DNA of 64,000 bases, taken from NCBI RefSeq assembly GCF_001647275.1, contig NZ_LRMM01000020.1, forward strand, positions 1 through 64,000, read 5' to 3'. How positions within the stretch are numbered: the first letter of the stretch is position 1; each line of letters starts with the position of its first letter. This stretch comes from Rufibacter ruber. GTDB taxonomy: Bacteria; Bacteroidota; Bacteroidia; Cytophagales; Hymenobacteraceae. The notes below the pieces were generated by a model. The model had not been told where the DNA came from and made no database searches. It was given only the letters and a program-made list of their open reading frames with translations. This document shows, in pieces, positions 138 through 55,628 of this stretch. The position numbers and the translations under genes were made by a program.

Positions 138-1919
138 ATGGCGAAGCACACCTATGACATGGGGCTGATTGGCAACTGTGCCTATCTGGCTCTTATTCAC
201 AAAGACACCAACATTGAATGGCTCTGCTGGCCCCGCTTTGACAGTAGCTTCATCTTCGGGCCCATGATGGACCGGGAAAAAGGCGGTGAGTACTCGATCA
301 AGCCAGACACAGACCACTTCTCGTCGCACCAATACTACACAGAGAACACCAACATTCTCTGTACCGAGATTTCCTGTGAAGAAGGCTCTTACCGGGTCAC
401 GGACTTCGCACCGCGTTTCAGGCAGCACCAGCGCTATTACAAACCGCTCATGCTGATCAGGAAGGTAGAGCCGCTGGCGGGTTCGCCGCGTATCAAGGTC
501 ACCTGCCGCCCCGTGGGCAACTACGGGCAGCTGGAGCTCAAGCGCCGCCGCAGCAGCAACCACATCTCGTTCAGAGGCCTTGACGAGGAGGTACGCCTCA
601 CCACCAACGCCTCGCTCAGCTATATTCTGGAAGACCAGTATTTTGTCTTGAATGAGACCATTTACCTGGTGCTGACGTATGGCGCGCCGCTGGAGGCCCG
701 TCTGGAAAGCACCGCTGAGGAGTTCCTGAGCCAGACTACGCGCTACTGGCGCATGTGGGTGAAGAACACCAGCATCAGCAACTTCTTCCAGGAACAAGTC
801 ATCCGTTCGGCCTTGGCCCTCAAAATTCACCAGTACGAAGACACGGGCGCCATCATTGCGTCACCAACCACCAGCCTACCGGAACACCCCGGCTCCGGCC
901 GTAACTGGGACTACCGCTTCTGCTGGATGCGCGACACGTATTACATCCTGAACGCGTTCAACAACATTGGGCACTTTGAGGAGATGGAGCGGTATTTCCA
1001 TTTCATTGCCAACATCACGGCCAAAGATACCCAGCGCTACCAGCCGCTTTACTCCATCAGTGCGCAGAGCAAGCTCACTGAGATTGAACTGGAGCTGGAC
1101 GGTTACCTGGGCAACAAACCCGTGCGCATAGGCAATGACGCTTACACCCACATCCAGAATGACGTGTATGGGCAGATTCTGGTGGCGCTGCTGCCGCTGT
1201 ACGTTGACCGCCGTTTCAATGACGCCGAGCGCATAGAATCACAGAAGCTGATCTACAAGACGCTGTACAAGATACGCGATACCATGAACGAGCCGGACGC
1301 CGGCCTGTGGGAGTTCCGTGATTTTGCGCAGTACCATTGTTATACGTACCTGTTCCACTGGGCCGGGGCCGCCGCCGCCCGCAGTGCCGCCCGCTACATG
1401 GGAGATGAGCAGCTGGGCCAGTTGGCCAACGACCTCATGCAGCAGGCCGCGGCCAAGATTGAGGAGTGCTTTGACCCGGCGCAGGGCGTGTACACGCAGG
1501 CCATCGGGAAAAACCACATGGACGCCAGCACGCTGCAGCTCATCATGATGCACTATCTGGACCCCGCCTCTGAGCGCGCCAAAACGCACTTGGCAGCCAT
1601 GGAAAAGGAACTGAAAACCCCAGAAGGTCTCTTTTACCGCTACAAGCACGCAGATGACTTTGGCGTGCCGCAAAGCACTTTCCTGATCTGCGCGTTCTGG
1701 TACATTGAGGCCCTGGCCTGCGTGGGCCGCGTAGACGAAGCCATTTTTGAGTTTGAGAACATTCTGAAATACTCGAACCACCTGGGCTTGTTGAGCGAAG
1801 ACGTGGATTCCCGTGACGGCAGCCAGTGGGGGAACTTCCCGCAGGCCTACAGCCACGTGGGGCTGCTCAACGCCGCCTACCGCATCTCCAAACGTCTGGA
1901 TAGACCGTCCTTTCTGTAG
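138..1919 (+). CDS. Glycoside hydrolase family 15 protein (glucoamylase/trehalase-like)
   Basis: A 593-aa protein without signal peptide, so cytoplasmic. The N-terminal beta-sandwich region (about 1-220) begins with the GNCAYLALI and EWLCWPRFDSS stretches typical of bacterial GH15 proteins. The (alpha/alpha)6 barrel carries WDYRFCWMRD near residue 256 and, near the C-terminus (about 553-570), SEDVDSRDG then GNFPQAYSH, which holds the likely catalytic base. GH15 members hydrolyse alpha-glucosides, and some are trehalases. Lying next to a trehalose-phosphate synthase/phosphatase, a role in trehalose or alpha-glucan turnover is the best inference; substrate is not proven. The ATG at 138 fits the conserved N-terminus. 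The neighbouring otsAB gene is convergent, and a terminator follows at 1957. Confidence 0.9.
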   Translation: MAKHTYDMGLIGNCAYLALIHKDTNIEWLCWPRFDSSFIFGPMMDREKGGEYSIKPDTDHFSSHQYYTENTNILCTEISCEEGSYRVTDFAPRFRQHQRYYKPLMLIRKVEPLAGSPRIKVTCRPVGNYGQLELKRRRSSNHISFRGLDEEVRLTTNASLSYILEDQYFVLNETIYLVLTYGAPLEARLESTAEEFLSQTTRYWRMWVKNTSISNFFQEQVIRSALALKIHQYEDTGAIIASPTTSLPEHPGSGRNWDYRFCWMRDTYYILNAFNNIGHFEEMERYFHFIANITAKDTQRYQPLYSISAQSKLTEIELELDGYLGNKPVRIGNDAYTHIQNDVYGQILVALLPLYVDRRFNDAERIESQKLIYKTLYKIRDTMNEPDAGLWEFRDFAQYHCYTYLFHWAGAAAARSAARYMGDEQLGQLANDLMQQAAAKIEECFDPAQGVYTQAIGKNHMDASTLQLIMMHYLDPASERAKTHLAAMEKELKTPEGLFYRYKHADDFGVPQSTFLICAFWYIEALACVGRVDEAIFEFENILKYSNHLGLLSEDVDSRDGSQWGNFPQAYSHVGLLNAAYRISKRLDRPSFL

Positions 1920-1956
1920 ATGCTTAGCTTCTGAAAAGCATAGTTGACAAGAAAAA

Positions 1957-1985
1957 GCTCCTGCTAGAAATGGCAGGAGCTTTTT
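1957..1985 (+). terminator. Rho-independent terminator of the GH15 gene
   Basis: Stem GCTCCTGC/GCAGGAGC with an 8-nt loop followed by TTTTT, starting 38 nt after the GH15 stop. A P40 palindrome abuts it directly. Confidence 0.85.
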
Positions 1986-2027
1986 CCGTTTCTGGCCTAT
2001 TTTGGCCAAAACAGCCCGAAAACGGAA
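1984..2027. repeat. P40 palindrome
   Basis: Left arm GTTTCTGGCCTA and right arm CAGCCCGAAAAC differ at several positions; outer flank TTTCC pairs with GGAAA. It overlaps the T-run of the GH15 terminator. Confidence 0.75.
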
Positions 2028-2038
2028 ACTGCGGTATT

Positions 2039-2070
2039 CCTTCTCCCCCTGGGAGAAGGCTAGGATGAGG
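2039..2070 (-). repeat. Solitary TCTCCC hairpin with GATGAGG tail
   Basis: On the minus strand it reads CCTCATCCTAGCC and then a CTTCTCCC/GGGAGAAG hairpin. This is the same layout (CCTC-pyrimidine tract followed by a TCTCCC hairpin) as each end of the DUF559 insertion in metH. Confidence 0.6.
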
Positions 2071-2170
2071 GCGAGGCGGTTCCAGTTGTAACTGCAGTTG
2101 GCACAGACGCTCGCAGGTCCTCCGGACGCTACGAGGTCTTAATGAAATGTTGATTATTAAAAACGAAAGC

Positions 2171-2199
2171 ACTGGCGCGAGCTTGCAGCTCGTGCCAGT
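2171..2199. repeat. GGCGCG...CGTGCC variable-stem hairpin
   Basis: ACTGGCGCGAGCT-TGC-AGCTCGTGCCAGT forms a near-perfect hairpin. The ends are shared with copies at 6728, 26498, 26549, 30203 and 45563, while the inner stem is copy-specific. Confidence 0.7.
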
Positions 2200-2298
2200 A
2201 GAATGAATGAGTAAACATGAATTTGTATTACTGGCTAAAGCCGAAAGATTCATGCAGTTTCTCTTAGGCAAATTGTCTTACCAGTAGAACGGCCTTAC

Positions 2299-2327
2299 CC
2301 TCCTAACCTTCTCCCTTTGGGAGAAGG
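2299..2327 (+). repeat. Solitary TCTCCC hairpin
   Basis: CCTCCTAACC followed by CTTCTCCC-TTT-GGGAGAAG. It resembles the metH insertion ends and is in opposite orientation to the copy at 2039. Confidence 0.6.
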
Positions 2328-2335
2328 AACTCCGT

Positions 2336-2387
2336 GGTTTTCTGTTTTCGGGCTGTTTTGGAGAAAACAGCCCGAAAACAGAAAACC
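2336..2387. repeat. P40 dispersed palindrome (perfect copy)
   Basis: A clean copy of the commonest repeat in the window. The left arm GTTTTCGGGCTG is exactly complementary to the right arm CAGCCCGAAAAC, around a TTTTGGAGAAAA centre. The copy-specific flanks GGTTTTCT and AGAAAACC extend the stem, so the whole 52-bp unit is one hairpin. Thirty-four whole or partial copies occur in 64 kb, mostly just after stop codons. Different copies carry different but mutually complementary arms. A transcription-termination or mRNA 3'-end role is inference. Confidence 0.9.
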
Positions 2388-2455
2388 CTGTGAGGTTTGG
2401 GAAACCTCACAGGGTTTGGACTACATCATGCTACAAATGTCTACTGCGACTGAAA

Positions 2456-2622
2456 TTAGAGCATGTTTACATTTTCCTTCTGCGCTGCAAACGGGTATCA
2501 AAAGAACCTGACTTTGCCATTTTCTCGCACCATAGCGGGGCGTATGCTGCTCAAAAATCGCTTCGCCAGAACCTTGTGCTCCCCATTTTCGCCTGCAAAA
2601 TCAAAATGTAAACAAGCTCTTA
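2456..2622 (+). mobile_element. MITE-like 167-bp element, copy 1
   Basis: The ends TTAGAGCATGTTTACATTTT and AAAATGTAAACAAGCTCTTA are near-perfect inverted repeats. The interior matches the copies at 19584-19748 and, in reverse, 61338-61503. It has no coding capacity, so it would need a transposase supplied elsewhere. Confidence 0.7.
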
Positions 2623-2658
2623 GTAAACAATAATCAGCAATGAACCATTAGCATTTCC

Positions 2659-4829
2659 TTAACAAAGCGACTTGAGCAGTTTGCGCACGTCATTGCTGCC
2701 GTCTACATTGAAGCGGGCGTTGGAGCGTTCATTGCCTACTTTAATGCTGAAGGCCTCTTTGGGCATGGCCTGGAACATGTCTTCGTCTGTGCGGTCATCG
2801 CCAATAGACAGGATAAAGTCATGCGGGTGCTGTTCCAGCCAGCGGGCGGTGGCCACGCCTTTGTTAACTTCCACGTTTTTGATCTCCACAATCTTATCGC
2901 CCTCCATGACCTGCAGGTTAATGTTGGCGGCTATGAACAGGAGATAGTTGCTGAGTTCACGGGCGCGCAGTTCGGCCAGTGTGCGGTCTACCTTGCGGTA
3001 ATGCCACACCAGGGAAAAATCTTTTTCTTCTATAAACGAGCCTGGGGTACGGTCTACGTGCAGCTCCAGAATAGGCCTCACTTCTGCTTTCCAGCTGTCA
3101 CTGAGGTGTTGCAGCATTTCCCACTGGCCGTTCTGCTCCCGTGACCAAACACCGTGCTCGGCAATAAAGGCTACCGGCAGGTGCCCCAGCCATTTCTCCA
3201 GCGTATGGCGGTCGCGGCCGCTCACAATCACCACCTGGTTCTCTGGGTTCTGGGTAAGGCAGGTTAACGTTTCCAGCAGTTCCTGGTCTGGGAACGCCGC
3301 GTTAGGATCTTTCTTGAAGGGACTTAATGTGCCGTCATAGTCCAGGAACAGCATGCGCTGATGTGACTTTTTAAAGCTTTCCAGCAGTTGGGCACTCTCC
3401 TCTTTAGAAAGCGACTCAGTGGCCATTGCCTTTTGCTTTTCCTTGATGTACTCCAGCCGGTTCATGAAAATGCTCACCCAATGGTGTATGTTGTAGCGCT
3501 GCACAATCTCCTGCATGTGCTCCATGCGCGTGATCTGCTCCTCTTCGGGCATCAACAAGGCTTCTCTGATGGTGCGCACCATCTGCCCCAGATCATTGGG
3601 GTTGATGAGCAGGGCGTCTGCCAGCTCTCTGGAGGCACCTGCCATTTCGCTTAAGATCAGCACGCCTTTCCGGTCTACCTTGCTGGCAATGTATTCTTTG
3701 CAGACCAGGTTCATGCCATCCCGCATAGGCGTGACCAAGGCAATGTCTGCCACGCTGTACAGCGCCGAAAGTTCTTCAATGGGGAACGAGCGGTAGAAAT
3801 ATTGAATGGGGGTCCAGGTGATGGTGCGGTAAGAGCTGTTAATACGGCCCACCAGTTCATCAATGGTCTCCTTAAGTTGCTTGTACATCTCCACCTGGTC
3901 CCGAGACGGCACCACCAGCATAGACAGCGTTACCTTGCCGTGAAAATCTGGGTTTTCCTTCAGGAACAACTCAAAGGCTTGCAACCTTTGCGGAATCCCC
4001 TTGGAGTAGTCCAGGCGGTCAATAGACAGGATAATGCGCTGCTCCTGCAAGGCTTCGCGGTATTCGGCAATTTTGGCGTGGGTTTCTTCTGACGTGGCCA
4101 GGCTGGCGTACTTGTCATAGTCAATCCCATGGGGAACGCATCTACCATGATGTTCCGGAACCCGTTGTCTATAAGCCCCTGCGAAGTGTTCAGCCCCACA
4201 ATACGGCTCACGGAACTGAGGAAGTGACGCGCGTCATCATAGGTATGAAACCCGATCAGATCTGCGCCCAGCATGCCCTGTAGCAGTTGCTCCCGCCAAG
4301 GCAGTAATCTGAAAACCTCAAAGGACGGGAACGGGATATGCTGGAAAAACCCGATGGTGCTCTCCGGCATCTGCTCCCTAAGCATGGCCGGTAGCAGCAG
4401 CAACTGGTAATCATGCACCCAGATGGTGTCACCGGCAGAGGCCAGCTCCATGACCGCCTCACAGAACTTCTGGTTCACCCGCTGGTAGGCCTCCCAGTAG
4501 GTGTCCTCATATACCGCGTACTGGCTGAAGTAGTGAAATGTAGGCCACAGCGTCTCATTGCTGAACCCCTCGTAAAAATCCCTGATCTCCCCTTCTGTGA
4601 GGTAGACAGGGTGCATGCTTTGCTGATGAAGGTCTTGCCGCACCTGCTTTTTCTCTGAGTCTTCCTCAAAGTAGGTGCCGGGCCAGCCAATCCAGACGTT
4701 GTCGCCTTGTTTGTAGATAGATCCCAAACCGGTAGCCAAGCCACCCTCGCTTGACTCATATGCCAAGCCTTCTTCTGTTCTCTGTACTTTGATAGGCAGC
4801 CGGTTGGAGATGATAATGGTTTTGGGCAT
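2659..4829 (-). pseudogene. otsAB: Trehalose-6-phosphate synthase/phosphatase fusion (OtsA-OtsB), frameshifted
   Basis: Bifunctional enzyme: the N-terminal GT20 synthase makes trehalose-6-phosphate from nucleotide-glucose and glucose-6-phosphate, and the C-terminal HAD phosphatase releases trehalose. The synthase half shows ISNRLPIKV, WIGWPG, VHDYQLLLLP, GFFQHIPFP, LSIDRLDYSKG and RDGMNLV. The phosphatase half shows FLDYDGTLSPF, VSGRDRHTLE and GDDRTDEDMF. The frame breaks near 4126: after DAFPMG the conserved continuation DYDKYASLA is in the next frame. Restoring one base in the CCC run at 4126-4128 gives a 723-aa fusion, normal for Bacteroidota. Everything else looks intact, so a sequencing error is more likely than decay. 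It is transcribed divergently from the MscS channel and convergently with the GH15 gene. Confidence 0.9.
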
Positions 4830-5083
4830 AGTAGGTTGGATTTAATGGAAAATAAGTGGGAGCCCCAGGCAAGGGTTTCGTTTTGCCTTTCAGGAATAAT
4901 TCCCTAAACAGCCCCACCTGCTCTTATGTATGGGTTTACTGGTTTGGGTAAGCTTTTGTTGGTTAATATTCAAATATTAATATATAAAAAGACGCTTAAA
5001 AACGGCCCCAGCCCGTAGTGAAAAGTAACCTTTCTCCTGCTTGGCGGGTAAGCATGAACTTGTATTTGAACAGGTCAACAGGA

Positions 5084-6169
5084 ATGATTGAAGAAATTAA
5101 ACACTTTACCCTAGACCACTTTCCCCATTTTCTGCAAGGTGCCGGCGTCATAGCGGGGGCTATCATGGTAGGCATCATTATCAAGTGGCTGATCTTTAAG
5201 GTCCTTTCCACCTATCAGCACTGGTTCCCCCATGTTTGGGTAGAGGCTATTCTCAGAAAACTCAGCAAACCTGTTTCTTACCTCATGCCCCTGCTGGCGC
5301 TGGGCGCTGCCCTGCCCTTGCTGCCGTTGACCCCAGAGGCGCGGGAAGTCTTCAGGCGGGTCATGGAAATCTCCCTCACCGTGGTGTTTGCCTGGTTCCT
5401 GATTGGGTGGGTAAACGTGGTTCAGTACCAGATCAGAAAGAAGCACCAGCTGGACAAGGCAGACAACATCAAAGAGCGTCGGCTCTTCACCCAGCTCCAG
5501 TTCATCAGGCGGATGGCCATTATCCTGATTGTGTTCCTGGCCGCCTGCCTTATCCTGATGAGTTTCCCAACGGTGCGTAAAATTGGTACGGGTCTGGTGA
5601 CCTCTGCCGGGATTGCGGGCGTGATCTTGGGCTTTGCGGCCCAGAAATCGTTGGGGAACCTGCTGGCGGGTTTTCAGCTGGCCTTCACGCAGCCTATGCG
5701 CCTGGATGATGTGCTGGTGGTGGAGAACGAATGGGGCCGCGTAGAGGAAATCACCCTCACCTACGTGGTCATGCGCCTCTGGGACCAGCGCCGACTGGTG
5801 TTGCCCATCAACTACTTTATAGAGAAGCCTTTCCAGAACTGGACGCGCACCAACGCTGAGTTGCTGGGCACCGTTTTCCTGTACCTGGATTATACCGCCC
5901 CCATAGATGCGCTGCGCGAAGAACTCACCCGCATCTTGAAAGAAACCCACCTCTGGGACGGCCGCGTGGGCATACTGCAGGTCACCGACTCCAAGGAAAG
6001 AACCTTAGAATTGCGCGCCCTGGTCAGTGCCCGAGATTCTGGGACTGCGTATGACCTGCGCTGCTTTGTGCGGGAGAAGCTGGTAGATTTCGTACAGAAA
6101 AACTACCCGGAGTGCCTGCCTCTCAACAGAACCATTCTGCCCGCCGGCACAGATCCTGCCGTGGCGTAG
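5084..6169 (+). CDS. MscS-family mechanosensitive ion channel
   Basis: Small-conductance mechanosensitive channel that would release solutes on hypo-osmotic shock. Hydrophobic segments occur near the N-terminus (VIAGAIMVGIIIKWLIF), at VVFAWFLIGWV and at MAIILIVFLAACLILM. The pore-lining helix region GLVTSAGIAGVILGFAAQKSLGN is followed by the MscS beta domain (QPMRLDDVLVVENEWGRVEEI). The frame is open from a GTG at 5018, with ATGs at 5054 and 5084. I chose 5084 because a TGTATTTG box (one mismatch to TAnnTTTG) sits just upstream at 5061 and the first membrane helix follows naturally; 5054 is possible. It is divergent from otsAB, which suits a shared osmotic-stress context. Confidence 0.88.
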   Translation: MIEEIKHFTLDHFPHFLQGAGVIAGAIMVGIIIKWLIFKVLSTYQHWFPHVWVEAILRKLSKPVSYLMPLLALGAALPLLPLTPEAREVFRRVMEISLTVVFAWFLIGWVNVVQYQIRKKHQLDKADNIKERRLFTQLQFIRRMAIILIVFLAACLILMSFPTVRKIGTGLVTSAGIAGVILGFAAQKSLGNLLAGFQLAFTQPMRLDDVLVVENEWGRVEEITLTYVVMRLWDQRRLVLPINYFIEKPFQNWTRTNAELLGTVFLYLDYTAPIDALREELTRILKETHLWDGRVGILQVTDSKERTLELRALVSARDSGTAYDLRCFVREKLVDFVQKNYPECLPLNRTILPAGTDPAVA

Positions 6170-6234
6170 GTTGATGACTCAAGATTTAGTTTTGTCCTGT
6201 TGAAATTGGTTGGTTTGAGTAAAGTAGAAAATCT

Positions 6235-6271
6235 GTTTTAGGCTTATTTTCAGAAAAACAGGCCGAAAACG
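6235..6271. repeat. P40 palindrome
   Basis: Arms GTTTTAGGCTTA and CAGGCCGAAAAC, partly degenerate, 66 nt after the MscS stop. Confidence 0.7.
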
Positions 6272-6360
6272 CTTTCTGGTGATCCTGAGCATCCTTGAGG
6301 CGGGAGCCGAAGAGAGCTAGGCGTAGCTACTGAAGGATCTAATGGAGAAGTGTTTGCCTT

Positions 6361-6654
6361 TGCGTAGTCTGCTGTTCCCTAGGCTGTGCCGCTGTTGGCA
6401 ATGCCTCACTGGCTGTTCTGTTTCACCTCTTCCGGTAAGCGCTCACGGCCGCGGGGCCCGTCCTGCCGGCTCGCACTGCTGTTAAAACTACGCCTTTGGC
6501 GTTGCCTTCGGCACCGTATTAACAGAGGCGCTCACCGCCAGGACTGGTTTCTGTTCCTTTCCTGATCAGCTTGTCTGCTGGGTCTGCTTTAGCAGGTCAC
6601 TGCTGCTGTTCCGCTAGCCTGAGACGAGCCCGTGCTGCGCACATCAGTCAGGGG
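6361..6654 (+). repeat. 300-bp structured repeat, copy A
   Basis: Starts TGCGTAGTCTGCTGTTCCCT and ends CACATCAGTCAGGGG. The core (6460-6544) folds as an outer stem GTCCTGCCGG/CCGCCAGGAC, an internal loop, the stem CTGTTAA/TTAACAG, then two hairpins: CGCC-TTT-GGCG (6491-6501) and GCC-TTC-GGC (6504-6512). Copies B, C and D keep these pairs while changing their sequence. It is non-coding, and its identity as RNA or DNA structure is unknown. Confidence 0.75.
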
Positions 6655-6727
6655 CATGGGTGGTGGAATGTCTGTGGTTGACTGTTAGTGGCTGCTGCTG
6701 CTACTGCTGGAAGTGACTTCAGCAGCT

Positions 6728-6751
6728 GGCGCGAGTCTCCAGACTCGTGCC
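6728..6751. repeat. GGCGCG...CGTGCC variable-stem hairpin
   Basis: GGCGCG-AGTCT-CC-AGACT-CGTGCC. Inner stem AGTCT/AGACT. Confidence 0.7.
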
Positions 6752-7069
6752 TACAGATGATGGGGAGTCTCTGACTACCCTCGCTGCCCGGCAGCGAAAC
6801 CACGCGTTTCAGATGCACCTTTTGCTGGTTCAAGTTTCCGACTTGGACCCACCATGGCGGAAGCTTGAAGCTTACATGTGGCGAAGCCTCAAAGAGCGCT
6901 ACCAGCTACTCCCCCTTTGAAGGGGGCGAAGGGGGATGTTTACACAGGAGGGCACACATTCCAGAAAACTCCCCTCCTCGTAGGGGTGGGTTTGTTACAG
7001 CTGCCACCGCTTTACCGCCTGCTCAAAAGACCTCACAGGTTTTAAAAACCTGTGAGGTCTATGCCATTT

Positions 7070-51257: not shown

Positions 51258-51366
51258 ATGCTTATCAAGAAAGACGGAGGGATTAGGCCCTGTGATGTCT
51301 TAGCAACCCAATTCAGTTGGGTGCTACTTCCTACCCGCTGCACCTACGCGCCGGGGGAGATGAGTG
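51258..51366 (+). ncRNA. SAM riboswitch (S-box type) upstream of metH
   Basis: P1 strand CTTATC (51261-51266) pairs with GATGAG (51359-51364). Between them are the S-box core sequences AAGACGGAGGGATTAGGCCC, GATGTCTTAGCAACC and GGTGCTACTTCC. S-box RNAs bind S-adenosylmethionine and repress methionine genes, consistent with the gene that follows. No obvious intrinsic terminator lies between it and the start codon, so control of translation is possible. Confidence 0.88.
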
Positions 51367-51449
51367 ACGGAGATTCCTACACACCTGCCCGCCACTTTCC
51401 TCCTACCCTTTCTTGAGCCGCCACTAACCCTTTAGGTTTGCACAAGAAG

Positions 51450-54400
51450 ATGACCCGCATTGAGGAAGAAGTACAGAAACGAATTTTAGTCTTAGACGGT
51501 GCCATGGGTACCATGATCCAGCGGTACAACCTGCAAGAGGAAGATTACCGCGGCCAGCGTTTCAAAGACTACCACCTGGACGTGAAGGGCAACAATGATG
51601 TGCTTTCCCTCACCCAACCCCACATCATCAAGGAAATCCACAGCCTCTACTTTGAGGCGGGCGCCGATATAGCCGAAACCAACACGTTCAGCGGCACCTC
51701 CATTGCCATGGCCGACTACGACATGCAGGATCTGGTGTACGAACTGAATTATGAATCTGCCAGAATAGCCAAAGAAGCCGCCCAGGAATGGACTGCCAAA
51801 ACCCCGGAGAAACCCCGCTTCGTAGCCGGCGCCATCGGACCTACGAACCGTACGGCGTCTTTATCGCCGGATGTGAACAACCCCGGCTACCGCGCCATCA
51901 CGTATGATGAGCTGGTAGAAGCCTACACCGAGCAGGTGCGCGGGCTGGTAGACGGCGGCGTGGATTTGCTGTTGGTAGAAACCATCTTTGATACCCTCAA
52001 TGCCAAGGCGGCGCTGTTCGCCATTGACCAATACAGCCAGCAGACGGGCAAGCGTTTGCCGCTCATGGTGTCTGGTACTATTACTGATGCCAGCGGTCGT
52101 ACCCTATCCGGACAGACCGTAGAGGCGTTTTTGTACTCGGTTTCACACATGCCGCTGTTGAGCGTGGGCTTTAACTGTGCCCTCGGGGCGAAGCAGCTGC
52201 GTCCGCACTTACAGAGCTTGAGCAAAGCGTCTAAATTCCACATCAGTGCGTACCCCAATGCCGGTCTGCCCAACGCCTTCGGGGCGTACGACGAGACGCC
52301 GGAGCAAATGGGCCAGCACATCCGTGATTTCCTGGAGAACAACTTCGTGAACATTGTGGGTGGTTGTTGCGGTACCACCCCGCCGCACATTAAGGTCATT
52401 GCCGAGATTGCCAAAGAATACCCGCCGCGTCCGTTGCCGCAGCTACCGGCCGTTCCTACCTACTCGGGTCTGGAGCCGCTTACTGTATATGAAGGTTCTA
52501 ACTTCGTGAACATTGGCGAGCGTACCAACGTGACCGGTTCCAAAAAATTCGCCCGCTTGATCCTGAATGAGCAGTACGAAGAAGCCCTGGCCGTAGCCCG
52601 TCAGCAGGTGGAGAACGGTGCCCAGATCATTGACGTGAACATGGACGAAGGCATGCTGGACTCCGAGGCCGCCATGACCTTGTTCCTGAACCTGATCGCC
52701 TCCGAGCCAGACATCGCCCGCGTGCCCATCATGATTGACTCCTCCAAGTGGAGCGTGATTGAGGCCGGTCTCAAGTGCGTGCAGGGGAAAGCCATCGTGA
52801 ACTCTATCTCGCTCAAAGAAGGCGAAGAAAAATTCAAAGAGTATGCCCGCAAAGTGCGCAGCTACGGCGCCGCCGTGGTAGTGATGGCGTTTGACGAAGA
52901 AGGCCAGGCCGACAACTACGAGCGCCGCATCCAAATCTGCGAGCGTGCTTACAACATCTTAACCAAAGAAGTAGGCTTCCCCGCCGAGGACATCATCTTT
53001 GACCCCAACATCCTCACCGTGGCCACCGGTATGGAGGAGCACAACAACTACGCCGTTGACTTCATTAACGCCACCCGCTGGATCAAGCAGAACCTGCCGG
53101 GTGCCAAAGTAAGCGGCGGGGTGAGTAATATTTCCTTCTCGTTCCGGGGCAATGACCCCGTACGCGAGGCCATGCACTCTGTATTCCTGTACCACGCCAT
53201 CAAAGCCGGTCTGGATATGGGCATTGTGAACGCGGGCATGTTGGAAGTCTATGAGGAAATTCCGAAAGACCTGCTGGAGCGCGTGGAAGATGTGTTGCTG
53301 AACCGCCGCCCAGACGCCACCGAGCGCCTCGTGGAGTTCGCCGAAACGGTGAAAAACAAAGGCAAAGAAGTGGTGCGCGACGAGGCCTGGCGCAACGAAC
53401 CGGTGCAAAAGCGTTTAACGCACGCATTGGTGAAAGGACTGGTAGAATACATTGACCAGGACGTGGAGGAAGCCCGCCACCTGTACAGCAAGCCACTGGA
53501 AGTGATTGAAGGTCCGCTCATGGACGGCATGAACGTGGTAGGCGACCTCTTCGGCGAAGGCAAAATGTTTCTCCCGCAGGTGGTGAAAAGCGCCCGCGTG
53601 ATGAAAAAAGCGGTGGCGTATTTGTTGCCGTTCATTGAGGAAGAGAAAGCGAGAGTGGCTGCATTGGAAGCAGAAGACGGACCTCACCCCCAACCCCTCT
53701 CCCACGGAGAGGGGAGTTCAGCTGATGCGTTGGGAAACTTTGTGTTTACATCGCCGGCCGAAAAGTGGAAAGTTTTGAAGGAGTTTGCGCAGCACAACCG
53801 CCAAGAGCCTACCAAAGCAGAAGATGTGCTGTGGCAAGCCCTTAGAAATCGAAAATTGGAAGGCTTCAAGTTTAGGAGACAGCACACTATTGAAGAATTC
53901 ATCGCCGATTTTGCGTGCTTGAATCCACGGGTAGTGGTAGAAGTGGACGGAGAAATCCATGAGCAGCAGCAAGAATACGATGCGCTGAGAACCGATTATT
54001 TGAACAGCCTTGGTTTCAGAGTAATCCGCTTCACCAACGAGGAAGTGCTCACCCAAATACCGCAGGTGTTAGAAAAAATAAGAAAGGAACTCCAAAAGGA
54101 ACCATTACCGCTCCCAACCCCATCAGCGGACACCCCCTCTCCGCGGGAGAGGGGGCAGGGGGGTGAGGTCTCCCGCTATGCCGGGCGCATTCTCCTCGCC
54201 ACCGTGAAAGGCGACGTACACGACATAGGCAAAAACATTGTGGGCGTGGTACTGGCCTGTAACAACTACGAGGTGATTGACCTGGGCGTCATGACCCCCG
54301 CCGATAAAATTCTGGATGCCGCCCGTGAGCACAACGTAGACGTAATCGGCCTCAGTGGTCTGATTACGCCTTCTTTGGACGAGATGGTGCACGTTGCCCG

Positions 54401-55628
54401 AGAAATGGAGCGCCAGAACTTCAACATTCCGCTGCTCATTGGCGGGGCCACCACGTCCCGTGCCCATACCGCTGTGAAAGTGGCACCGGCCTACAACGGC
54501 ACCGTGGTACACGTGCTGGATGCCTCGCGCAGCGTGCCCGTGGTAGGCAACCTGCTGAGCCCGGACAATAAAGAGCAGTTTGCGGCAGACATCAGGAAAG
54601 AATATGACGAGATGCGCGAAGGCTACCTGAGCCGCCAGAAGGAAAAGAAATACCTGCCCCTGCCGCAGGCCCGTGCGAACAAACTACCCATTGAGTGGAA
54701 AGCCGAAGATGTGTACACGCCCGCCAAAACCGGTGTACAGGTGTTCCAAAACTTCCCGCTGGAAGAACTGGTGCCGTACATTGACTGGACGCCCTTCTTC
54801 CAGGCCTGGGAGCTGCACGGCAAATTCCCGAGACTGCTGGAAGACGCAGTAGTGGGTGCCGAAGCCACCAAACTGTACGCCGATGCTCAGGCCCTGCTCC
54901 AACGCATTGTAGACGAAAAACTGCTCACCGCCAACGGCGTGGCAGGTCTGTTCCCAGCCAACAGCATAGGGGATGATGACGTGGAAATCTACACCAATGA
55001 GCAACGCACCGAAGTCCTCACACACTTCCGTACCCTACGCCAGCAAGGCCAGAAAGGCCCGAACGTGCCCAACTTAGCTTTGGCTGACTTTGTCGCGCCT
55101 AAAGAAACCGGATTGGCAGATTACACGGGTGGTTTCGCGGTAACCGCCGGTATTGGCCTGGACGATCTGGTAAAACAGTTTGAAGCCGATCATGACGATT
55201 ACCACAGCATCATGGCCAAAGCCTTAGCTGATCGTCTGGCCGAAGCATTCGCGGAGAAACTACACGAGATTGTGCGTAAGGAGATTTGGGCCTACGAGCC
55301 CGAGGAAAGCCTCACCAACGAAGAACTCATCAAAGAGAAATACCAGGGCATCCGTCCGGCGCCCGGTTATCCGGCCTGCCCGGACCATACCGAGAAAACC
55401 ACGCTGTTCCAGCTCCTGAACGTGGAGAAGCACACCGGCATCACCTTAACCGAGAGTCTGGCCATGTGGCCTACGGCGGCGGTGTCGGGTATGTACTTCG
55501 CGCACAGGCAGTCACGGTACTTCGGGTTGGGCAAGATTGAGAAAGACCAGGTGGTAGATTACGCGCAACGCAAAGGCATGCCTGTGGAGGAAACCGAGCG
55601 CTGGCTGTCGCCGAATTTAAATTACTGA
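51450..55628 (+). CDS. metH: Cobalamin-dependent methionine synthase with in-frame DUF559 nuclease insertion
   Basis: Transfers methyl from 5-methyl-THF to homocysteine via cobalamin. 1392 aa, against about 1230 expected. Domains: homocysteine ([19 protein letters not shown] and [11 protein letters not shown] zinc cysteines), pterin ([15 protein letters not shown]), B12 cap (to about 740), B12 ([12 protein letters not shown] with the ligand His; [26 protein letters not shown]) and SAM-dependent activation ([27 protein letters not shown]). Between cap and B12 domains, residues about 746-907 are foreign: a DUF559 domain flanked by low-complexity peptides encoded by inverted repeats. Removing about 162 codons restores normal length. 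The frame stays open throughout, so the host protein may function with the insert. ATG 51450 is preferred to the upstream TTG. The gene is under a SAM riboswitch. Confidence 0.95.
53682..54168 (+). mobile_element. DUF559 element inserted in frame in metH
   Basis: About 487 bp. The left end (53682-53714) reads CCTCACCCCCAACCCC then a CCTCTCCC/GGAGAGG hairpin. The right end (54133-54168) is its near-perfect inverse, ending GGGGGGTGAGG. Between is a Vsr/REase-like DUF559 domain: [56 protein letters not shown] and [14 protein letters not shown]. Family acidic/His positions (D in IADF, D and H in VDGEIH) are present, so activity is plausible. There is no internal ATG, and no target-site duplication could be defined. 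Repeat-flanked DUF559 genes are familiar from other bacteria; an in-frame location inside metH is unusual. Confidence 0.85.

Follow-up and report, generated by a model that had tools for sequence, protein, structure and literature searches.

Selfish nucleases in essential genes are usually removed by an intron or an intein, or lie outside the coding frame. RAYT is a gene for a Y1 HUH transposase. The REPIN/RAYT system, as outlined in abstracts of the literature, combines many small paired hairpin elements with few copies of a nuclease gene. In-frame palindromic repeats in protein genes, including repair genes and tRNA synthetases, are represented by the Rickettsia palindromic elements (RPEs) and by intragenic repetitive extragenic palindromes (REPs), according to passages of two reports (PMC10969869, PMC3733652). 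Excerpts of two others describe homing nucleases fused to or inserted in important genes, namely the rps3 fusions of fungal mitochondria and mobE in nrdA of phage Aeh1 (PMC5626475, PMC2988022). For the nuclease itself, abstracts and passages provide a precedent in the EDxHD nucleases (PMC3943268), assign a DUF559 gene to the EDxHD homing family (PMC9403480), and report that the DUF559 protein VsrA of Caulobacter drives the SOS response in a methylase mutant (PMC12907096). Here, we analyzed a window of 64,000 nucleotides (the whole stretch, positions 1 to 64,000 of contig NZ_LRMM01000020.1, forward strand) from Rufibacter ruber, in which the methionine synthase gene metH contains an in-frame DUF559 cassette with hairpin ends. 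Cassettes of this kind are placed in frame in many hosts, share their ends with dispersed copies, are patchily distributed on host trees, and show flank haplotypes, conserved residues, and a nuclease fold. This REP-bounded, unspliced, homing-type nuclease domain is probably a mobile element that lives in host proteins.

The features of the locus are listed below.

51259..51366, plus strand: S-adenosylmethionine (SAM) riboswitch (S-box) leader upstream of metH (Rfam RF00162, 72.3 bits, gathering threshold 44.4).
51450..55628, plus strand: metH, methionine synthase with in-frame DUF559 insertion (open reading frame and Pfam domains; TTG at 51438 as alternative start).
53406..53624, plus strand: B12-binding_2 cap domain of MetH, upstream of the insertion (Pfam PF02607, residues 652-724).
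53680..53734, plus strand: left end of the cassette, consisting of the GACCTCACCCCC arm, a hairpin at 53696-53712, and then CTGATGCGTT, coded as 11 residues (inverted repeats; dispersed repeat family of the genome).
53775..54095, plus strand: DUF559 (Vsr/EDxHD-like) nuclease domain (PF04480, E = 3.1e-39; AlphaFold2 model with a mean predicted local distance difference test score (pLDDT) of 87.9; Foldseek matches 3hrl and 3r3p).
54114..54170, plus strand: right end of the cassette, an inverted copy with a hairpin at 54136-54152, coded as 12 residues (inverted repeats; same dispersed family).
54183..54458, plus strand: B12-binding domain of MetH, downstream of the insertion (Pfam PF02310, residues 911-1002).

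The gene is one open frame (51438-55628) of 1396 residues when read from TTG, with an ATG start at 51450. The cassette of approximately 490 bp (53680-54170) splits it in frame between the B12 cap and B12-binding domains. Pfam places DUF559 at residues 775-881 (E = 4.1e-38), between B12-binding_2 and B12-binding, with all remaining MetH domains found alongside it, and gives only DUF559 and its overlapping relative MTES_1575 in this interval. The linker from the cap to the B12-binding domain is 180 residues long in R. ruber, compared with 17 residues in 13 empty metH genes of the same genus. The approximately 163 extra codons agree with the approximately 162 claimed by the original prediction, which was made from the letters and open reading frames of the window. 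The inverted repeats with hairpins that it had described were also recovered, as arms at 53680-53714/54136-54170 (35 nt, 74% complementary) and 53687-53734/54114-54161 (48 nt, 77%), each metH cassette arm containing the hairpin CCTCTCC-NNN-GGAGAGG. In an AlphaFold2 model of a MetH fragment (12 rows, mean pLDDT 68, predicted TM-score 0.36; its domain placement was not used), pLDDT falls below 50 at residues 100-127 and 245-265, which cover both coded ends, as expected for linkers.

The VDGxxH-type residues, correctly taken to be intact in the same prediction, are present in the metH insert as VEVDGEIH, and E30, D59, E70, D72, G73, H76, and D83 are invariant across 50 aligned DUF559 rows. The invariant E, D, H, and D columns presumably correspond to the residues of the EDxHD motif. 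In a Foldseek search with the domain model (50 rows), the closest fold was 3hrl, an endonuclease-like protein of Neisseria (E = 8.9e-10), followed by the homing endonuclease I-Bth0305I (PDB 3r3p; E = 8.9e-4, TMt 0.72), and E. coli Vsr was matched with E = 0.1 (probability 0.92). A sequence profile search (hmmsearch) ranked the same two proteins on top (3hrl, E = 7.9e-34; 3r3p, E = 4.6e-7). The cassette domain has the catalytic fold and residues of the EDxHD/Vsr type. The extended DNA-binding region that accompanies EDxHD nucleases was not found beside it, as Pfam gave no further domain and both flanks have pLDDT below 50.

Pfam scans of the examined hosts, at the thresholds used, revealed no intein or splicing (Hint) domain, and an Rfam scan of positions 53400-54400 gave no group I or II intron signal (best match E = 0.99). 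No MetE match was obtained (PF08267 in 0 of 8 genomes, PF01717 in 0 of 4 genomes), which leaves the fused MetH as the sole methionine synthase detected in the 98% complete R. ruber genome. Because MetE, intein domains, and intron signals were all absent from these scans, the fused MetH is presumably functional, judging from sequence. An origin as an intein, an intron, or an assembly artefact has nothing in its favor beyond the position in essential genes. A spliced insert need not be in frame, and the same arrangement was found in several independent assemblies, with those of G013 and G328 as single contigs among them, which makes the assembly chimera considered by the original prediction unlikely; together with the negative scans, this renders such an origin extremely improbable. 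The SAM riboswitch that precedes metH would also control the embedded nuclease, which is probably made when SAM is low.

The original prediction had also suggested looking for an empty site in close relatives, and such a site exists. Among 16 genomes of the genus, including R. ruber (G000), metH has the 17-residue linker in 13 and is filled in three (G000, G009, and G013), so the situation that would have contradicted the original prediction, with the domain in every close relative, does not hold. G018, of a second genus in the same family, is also filled, with metH split into frames of 909 and 573 residues. At this locus (L052, G018:C1:4680481-4684613), the frames overlap, which may reflect a sequence error, frameshifting, or a gene that is naturally split. 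In G093, from another family, this metH linker carries hairpins of a different type, and among 395 genomes sampled from the phylum, 338 of which gave a match, at least 8 further metH genes are filled. In a MetH backbone tree (58 rows, 23 of them filled; 14 of 72 MetH loci were skipped because the motif was not found), each of G009, G013, and G018 has an empty genome as its sister (Shimodaira-Hasegawa-like approximate likelihood ratio test support 95, 100, and 99), and 8 changes between filled and empty are needed, at least 6 of which are forced.

The divergence of the inserts does not follow that of their hosts. The G000 and G009 inserts are sisters in the DUF559 tree, and their host metH genes are not sisters in the MetH tree. 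For this pair, the synonymous divergence (dS, NG86) is 0.18 in DUF559 versus 0.69 in the host, and the third-codon identity of DUF559 (107/126) compares with a maximum of 77.8% across 193 overlapping host windows. The G000-G013 pair has the opposite sign, with inserts 60% identical and hosts 90% identical. Of eight further pairs, four have a lower dS in DUF559 than in the host (L231/L232, L220/L230, L127/L129, and L239/L245), and two gave no computable values (L022/L024 and L118/L119). The flank residues VAAL and SR[YF]AG are present in all four type-A filled metH genes, from two genera, and in none of 46 empty linkers (in one set of linkers, 11 of 20 fetched matched). Flank co-conversion is a known mark of homing, according to a passage of the Aeh1 report (PMC2988022). 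The shared flanks and the mismatch between insert and host divergence are indirectly consistent with lateral homing and co-conversion.

Other nuclease genes occur at or near metH. Separate-frame DUF559 genes lie directly downstream of metH in related genera (L097 in G053, L102 in G019, G037:C8:380113, and G051:C4:138996), and C-terminal DUF559 fusions of metH were found in other genomes of the family (G530, G532, and G568). The metH gene of G078 (L053, G078:C3:4500-11500, frame 1207-6999) has an in-frame insert of several hundred residues in the activation domain, near the DUF559 site of G083. This insert matches PBECR3 (phage Barnase-EndoU-ColicinE5/D-RelE-like nuclease 3) with E = 1.2e-6, just under the Pfam cut-off, and its right edge, PSSGARG, resembles a hairpin-coded linker; it is possibly a second kind of nuclease using similar ends.

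DUF559 domains embedded in other housekeeping genes, which the original prediction had proposed to collect, were indeed found. A scan of named genomes gave at least 577 confirmed loci, the best 80 of which were classified, and the fractions given here describe that sample. Of these 80, 58 are internal to a longer open frame, 4 are C-terminal fusions, 4 are cut by contig ends, 1 is on the N-side, and 13 are short. Judged by eye, the 14 short and N-side loci seem to be either intergenic or placed at one edge of a host gene (its start or its end), and none looked like a gene split out of frame at its middle. L249 was classed by a second copy near its end, and the copy that brought it in lies in a 644-residue frame. 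Hosts that score above the NCBIfam cut-off despite the insert are LeuRS, IleRS, ValRS, MetRS, UvrA, RecG, RecJ, acetate-CoA ligase (acs), HisD, and MazG, and HsdR of G358 is above a subfamily cut-off. Pfam identified further hosts: GH31, adenine deaminase, DegT aminotransferase, a type ISP restriction enzyme, methylmalonyl-CoA mutase, and chorismate synthase. The other named metH, leuS, purQ, and recB labels come from BLAST to reference segments, and some of ileS, recG, recJ, and GH31 were assigned by eye. Within the family (150 genomes), PF04480 matches, among those listed, are often within long frames. Their hosts include an AddA/RecB-like UvrD helicase, an AddB-like PDDEXK_1 protein, and a PurQ-type FGAM synthase, all three under NCBIfam cut-offs, as well as RecQ, above its cut-off, and MetH C-termini; the remaining family loci were likewise labeled by eye. 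In-frame palindromic insertion in unrelated protein genes, a trait of RPEs, is present here. In four loci (L249, L251, L260, and L196), the cassette was found where the gene that follows begins (leuC, argC, and others, as judged by eye), and its right end seems to give the host a new N-terminus.

Phylogenetic analysis placed the embedded copies largely in one group. In a tree of 77 DUF559 domains, 47 of 49 host-identified copies fall in one clade of 55 rows (support 98/94), which also includes some stand-alone copies; the two outside it come from the metH activation domain of G083 and from HsdR of G358. When named loci and more stand-alone copies were added in a quick tree (183 rows), a group of 134 rows with moderate support (85) took in all embedded or fused rows but the same two from G083 and G358 (115 of 117), together with 14 of 61 stand-alone rows. 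In a 136-row tree, built without L054, L157, and most ordinary stand-alone copies (restored in the 183-row tree), host labels need 46 changes versus 100.5 when shuffled, i.e., they are clustered yet switch frequently. The leuS site a requires 13 changes for 18 rows (at least 5 forced), the metH linker 6 changes for 24 rows (at least 2 forced), and sister inserts are often in different host genes. All DUF559 trees have few columns and many open forks, and some loci entered the 136- and 183-row trees twice from two sources (such as L125 and L201). The R. ruber genome has four DUF559 copies, of which only the metH copy is embedded. L003 groups with ordinary stand-alone copies in the 77-domain tree, and the truncated L002 was omitted from the trees and hence is unplaced. 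The position of L004 is unsteady: it forms a very long branch inside the embedded clade of the 77-domain tree, yet it is with same-genus stand-alone copies in another tree and outside the embedded group in the 183-row tree.

These trees bear on two alternatives. An ancient vertical fusion would mean an early entry of the domain into metH followed by many losses, today's copies being those retained, and the grouping of type-B metH inserts by family in both the DUF559 and MetH trees is in keeping with it. However, a clean 17-residue linker would have to be restored by each type-A loss, and this in many lineages. In addition, the divergence of element and host differs in both directions, different genera have flanks in common, and the host gene often differs between sister inserts. 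We consider this history improbable. A functional fusion, in which the nuclease benefits the host enzyme or the cell, e.g., through defence or through regulation via the SAM riboswitch that precedes metH, could account for the dN/dS of approximately 0.24 in the G000-G009 domain (0.044/0.18). Against this, the hosts have no evident common function and the same metH site is empty in close relatives. PADLOC also gave no match, and a defence system was rejected as a candidate. A benefit of this kind seems very unlikely. Cargo of plasmids or phages was rejected as well: matches at E values up to 1e-12 came from 30 of 72,556 plasmid records, and phages gave matches in 3 of 50,697 records.

The cassette ends belong to a dispersed family. 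CCTCTCC-NNN-GGAGAGG with at most one mismatch occurs at 53 places in the R. ruber genome, counting the two metH copies, versus 0 for the reversed control. Forty-seven distinct ends, two of which are those of the metH cassette and one of which has an arm that may be fortuitous, share the form GACCTCACCCCC(A/G)GCCCCTCTCCCACGGAGAGGGGAG...CTGATGCGTTTTGGGGCTGTTTT, and both metH ends fit this consensus up to about CTGATG. Among the matches listed, six hairpin pairs lie 84-104 nt apart, inverted where read, and dispersed paired inverted hairpins, a trait of REPINs, are present in this genome. The ends of embedded copies, whose comparison the original prediction had proposed, were evaluated in the 75 of the 80 named loci with enough flank, using 195 control pairs from the same loci: inverted ends exceed the 95th percentile of controls in 59 of 75 and every control in 37. 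The predicted in-frame, repeat-bounded nuclease cassette with signs of mobility is supported, whereas the idea that its ends were selected to be open in every frame is not. For 22 distinct ends that start with GACCTC, those of metH included, the counts of open left ends are 20, 20, and 22 by frame, but those of open right ends only 9, 15, and 17, i.e., 41 of 66 versus 80% of frames in shuffled ends, and the right end of the metH cassette has a stop in one frame. Stand-alone DUF559 genes of cyanobacteria (L206, L218, and L200, from Calothrix, Nostoc, and Hassallia) are flanked on both sides by REP-like hairpins.

In a cross-genome count, G000, G009, and G018, all with filled metH, have 37, 45, and 9 hairpin matches. 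Within the genus, 2 of 3 filled genomes are hairpin-rich versus 1 of 13 empty ones (Fisher p = 0.07), and with five genomes of the second genus added, 3 of 4 versus 1 of 17 (p = 0.012). The grouping was picked after the counts were seen, the genomes are related, and the tables omit other counted genomes, among them G019, G025, and G032 (20, 10, and 9 matches; cassettes in a recB-like gene), so the association of hairpin abundance with filled metH is suggestive only.

The hairpins could instead be moved by another enzyme, such as a Y1/RAYT transposase, with DUF559 as cargo that has no role in movement. The architecture resembles REPINs, R. ruber has 53 hairpins versus 4 DUF559 genes, and of 15 genomes that contain embedded DUF559, 13 have Y1_Tnp matches, R. 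ruber with four of them. However, the cassette itself encodes DUF559 rather than the REP-linked Y1 HUH transposase, and the other two genomes (G395 and G083) have embedded DUF559 with 0 Y1_Tnp matches, which weakens this explanation. L304, the one Y1 locus read of the four in R. ruber, has no cassette hairpin within its 3.3 kb. The DUF559 residues are conserved, and the fold is that of a homing nuclease. A passive passenger is unlikely.

Several observations weigh against the mobile-element reading. The metH gene of G018 is broken into two frames, and DUF559 dS exceeds host dS in two pairs (L120/L122 and L137/L146) of the six computable besides G000-G009. Type-B metH copies mostly track taxonomy in both trees (DUF559 and MetH), a pattern that is also compatible with vertical inheritance from long ago and later losses. 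No significant inverted ends were detected in 16 of 75 loci. G013 has a filled metH and 0 hairpin matches; conversely, G012 has 27 matches and an empty metH, and neither of the two DUF559 copies read, out of three, is of the cassette type. Furthermore, embedded copies were recognized via open frames, so that out-of-frame copies are easier to miss. As a separate observation, G012 apparently has a REP population without its enzyme.

We propose a model for the cassette based on its sequence and distribution. The element would comprise two REP-like hairpin ends and, between them, a single small nuclease gene (DUF559) with the EDxHD/Vsr fold. Its survival in essential genes may be due to in-frame insertion at protein linkers, where translation of the ends yields flexible spacers rich in Pro, Gly, and Ser and the nuclease becomes a bolt-on domain, with removal presumably at neither the RNA nor the protein level. 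The nuclease would cut empty alleles, and host repair would copy the cassette and short flanks into them (homing). Occasional ectopic events could carry the cassette into new genes, and the dispersed hairpin elements may also be targets of this protein. A bolder proposal, which we advance tentatively and hold to be possible rather than probable, is that this is a new class of autonomous mobile element: a splicing-free homing nuclease kept as a tolerated translated domain of essential proteins that also mobilizes the REP hairpins of the genome in trans. In R. ruber, the lone metH copy would then be the mobilizer, driven from a housekeeping gene under SAM riboswitch control, and RPEs and other intragenic palindromes could have arisen as non-autonomous relics of elements of this class.

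Nuclease domains appear to live unremoved in aminoacyl-tRNA synthetases, repair helicases, and the only methionine synthase found, which suggests a selfish element surviving as a tolerated piece of host proteins. We know of no described agent that moves RPEs; if our model is true, the cassette is a candidate enzyme for how REP and RPE palindromes enter coding sequences. It would also explain odd DUF559 fusions in automatic annotation and provide natural experiments in domain insertion at permissive linkers.

Each part of the arrangement has a precedent (RPEs, REPIN/RAYT, EDxHD nucleases, and rps3-nuclease fusions). In the titles, abstracts, and passages of the open-licence PMC literature, we found no description of DUF559 with REP ends or in frame in host enzymes and no precedent for the combination, which is not proof of absence. 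The stand-alone DUF559 proteins YcjD and Caulobacter VsrA have the same Pfam domain as the cassette, and most stand-alone DUF559 proteins of the searched genomes are outside the embedded group and have another N-terminus (YcjD and VsrA themselves are not in the trees). The EDxHD family, represented by I-Bth0305I, has the nuclease fold and a sequence relation in common with the cassette. Unlike that family, the cassette domain stands alone, is translated inside a host protein, and is bounded by REP hairpins. The rps3 fusions and Aeh1 mobE likewise place a homing nuclease in an important gene, and the split metH of G018 recalls the split gene of Aeh1; unlike the cassette, these cases belong to organelles or a phage, and in the passages available they are not described as having REP ends or colonizing many chromosomal genes. 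RPEs and intragenic REPs resemble the cassette, by their description in the sources, as in-frame palindromes in protein genes, whereas RPEs are short (approximately 20-80 residues) and the excerpted text mentions no nuclease within them (PMC3733652). The R. ruber genome resembles REPIN/RAYT systems, as far as the abstracts portray them, in combining dispersed small paired hairpins with few nuclease gene copies. Unlike RAYT, DUF559 has a Vsr-type fold and is found here inside host proteins.
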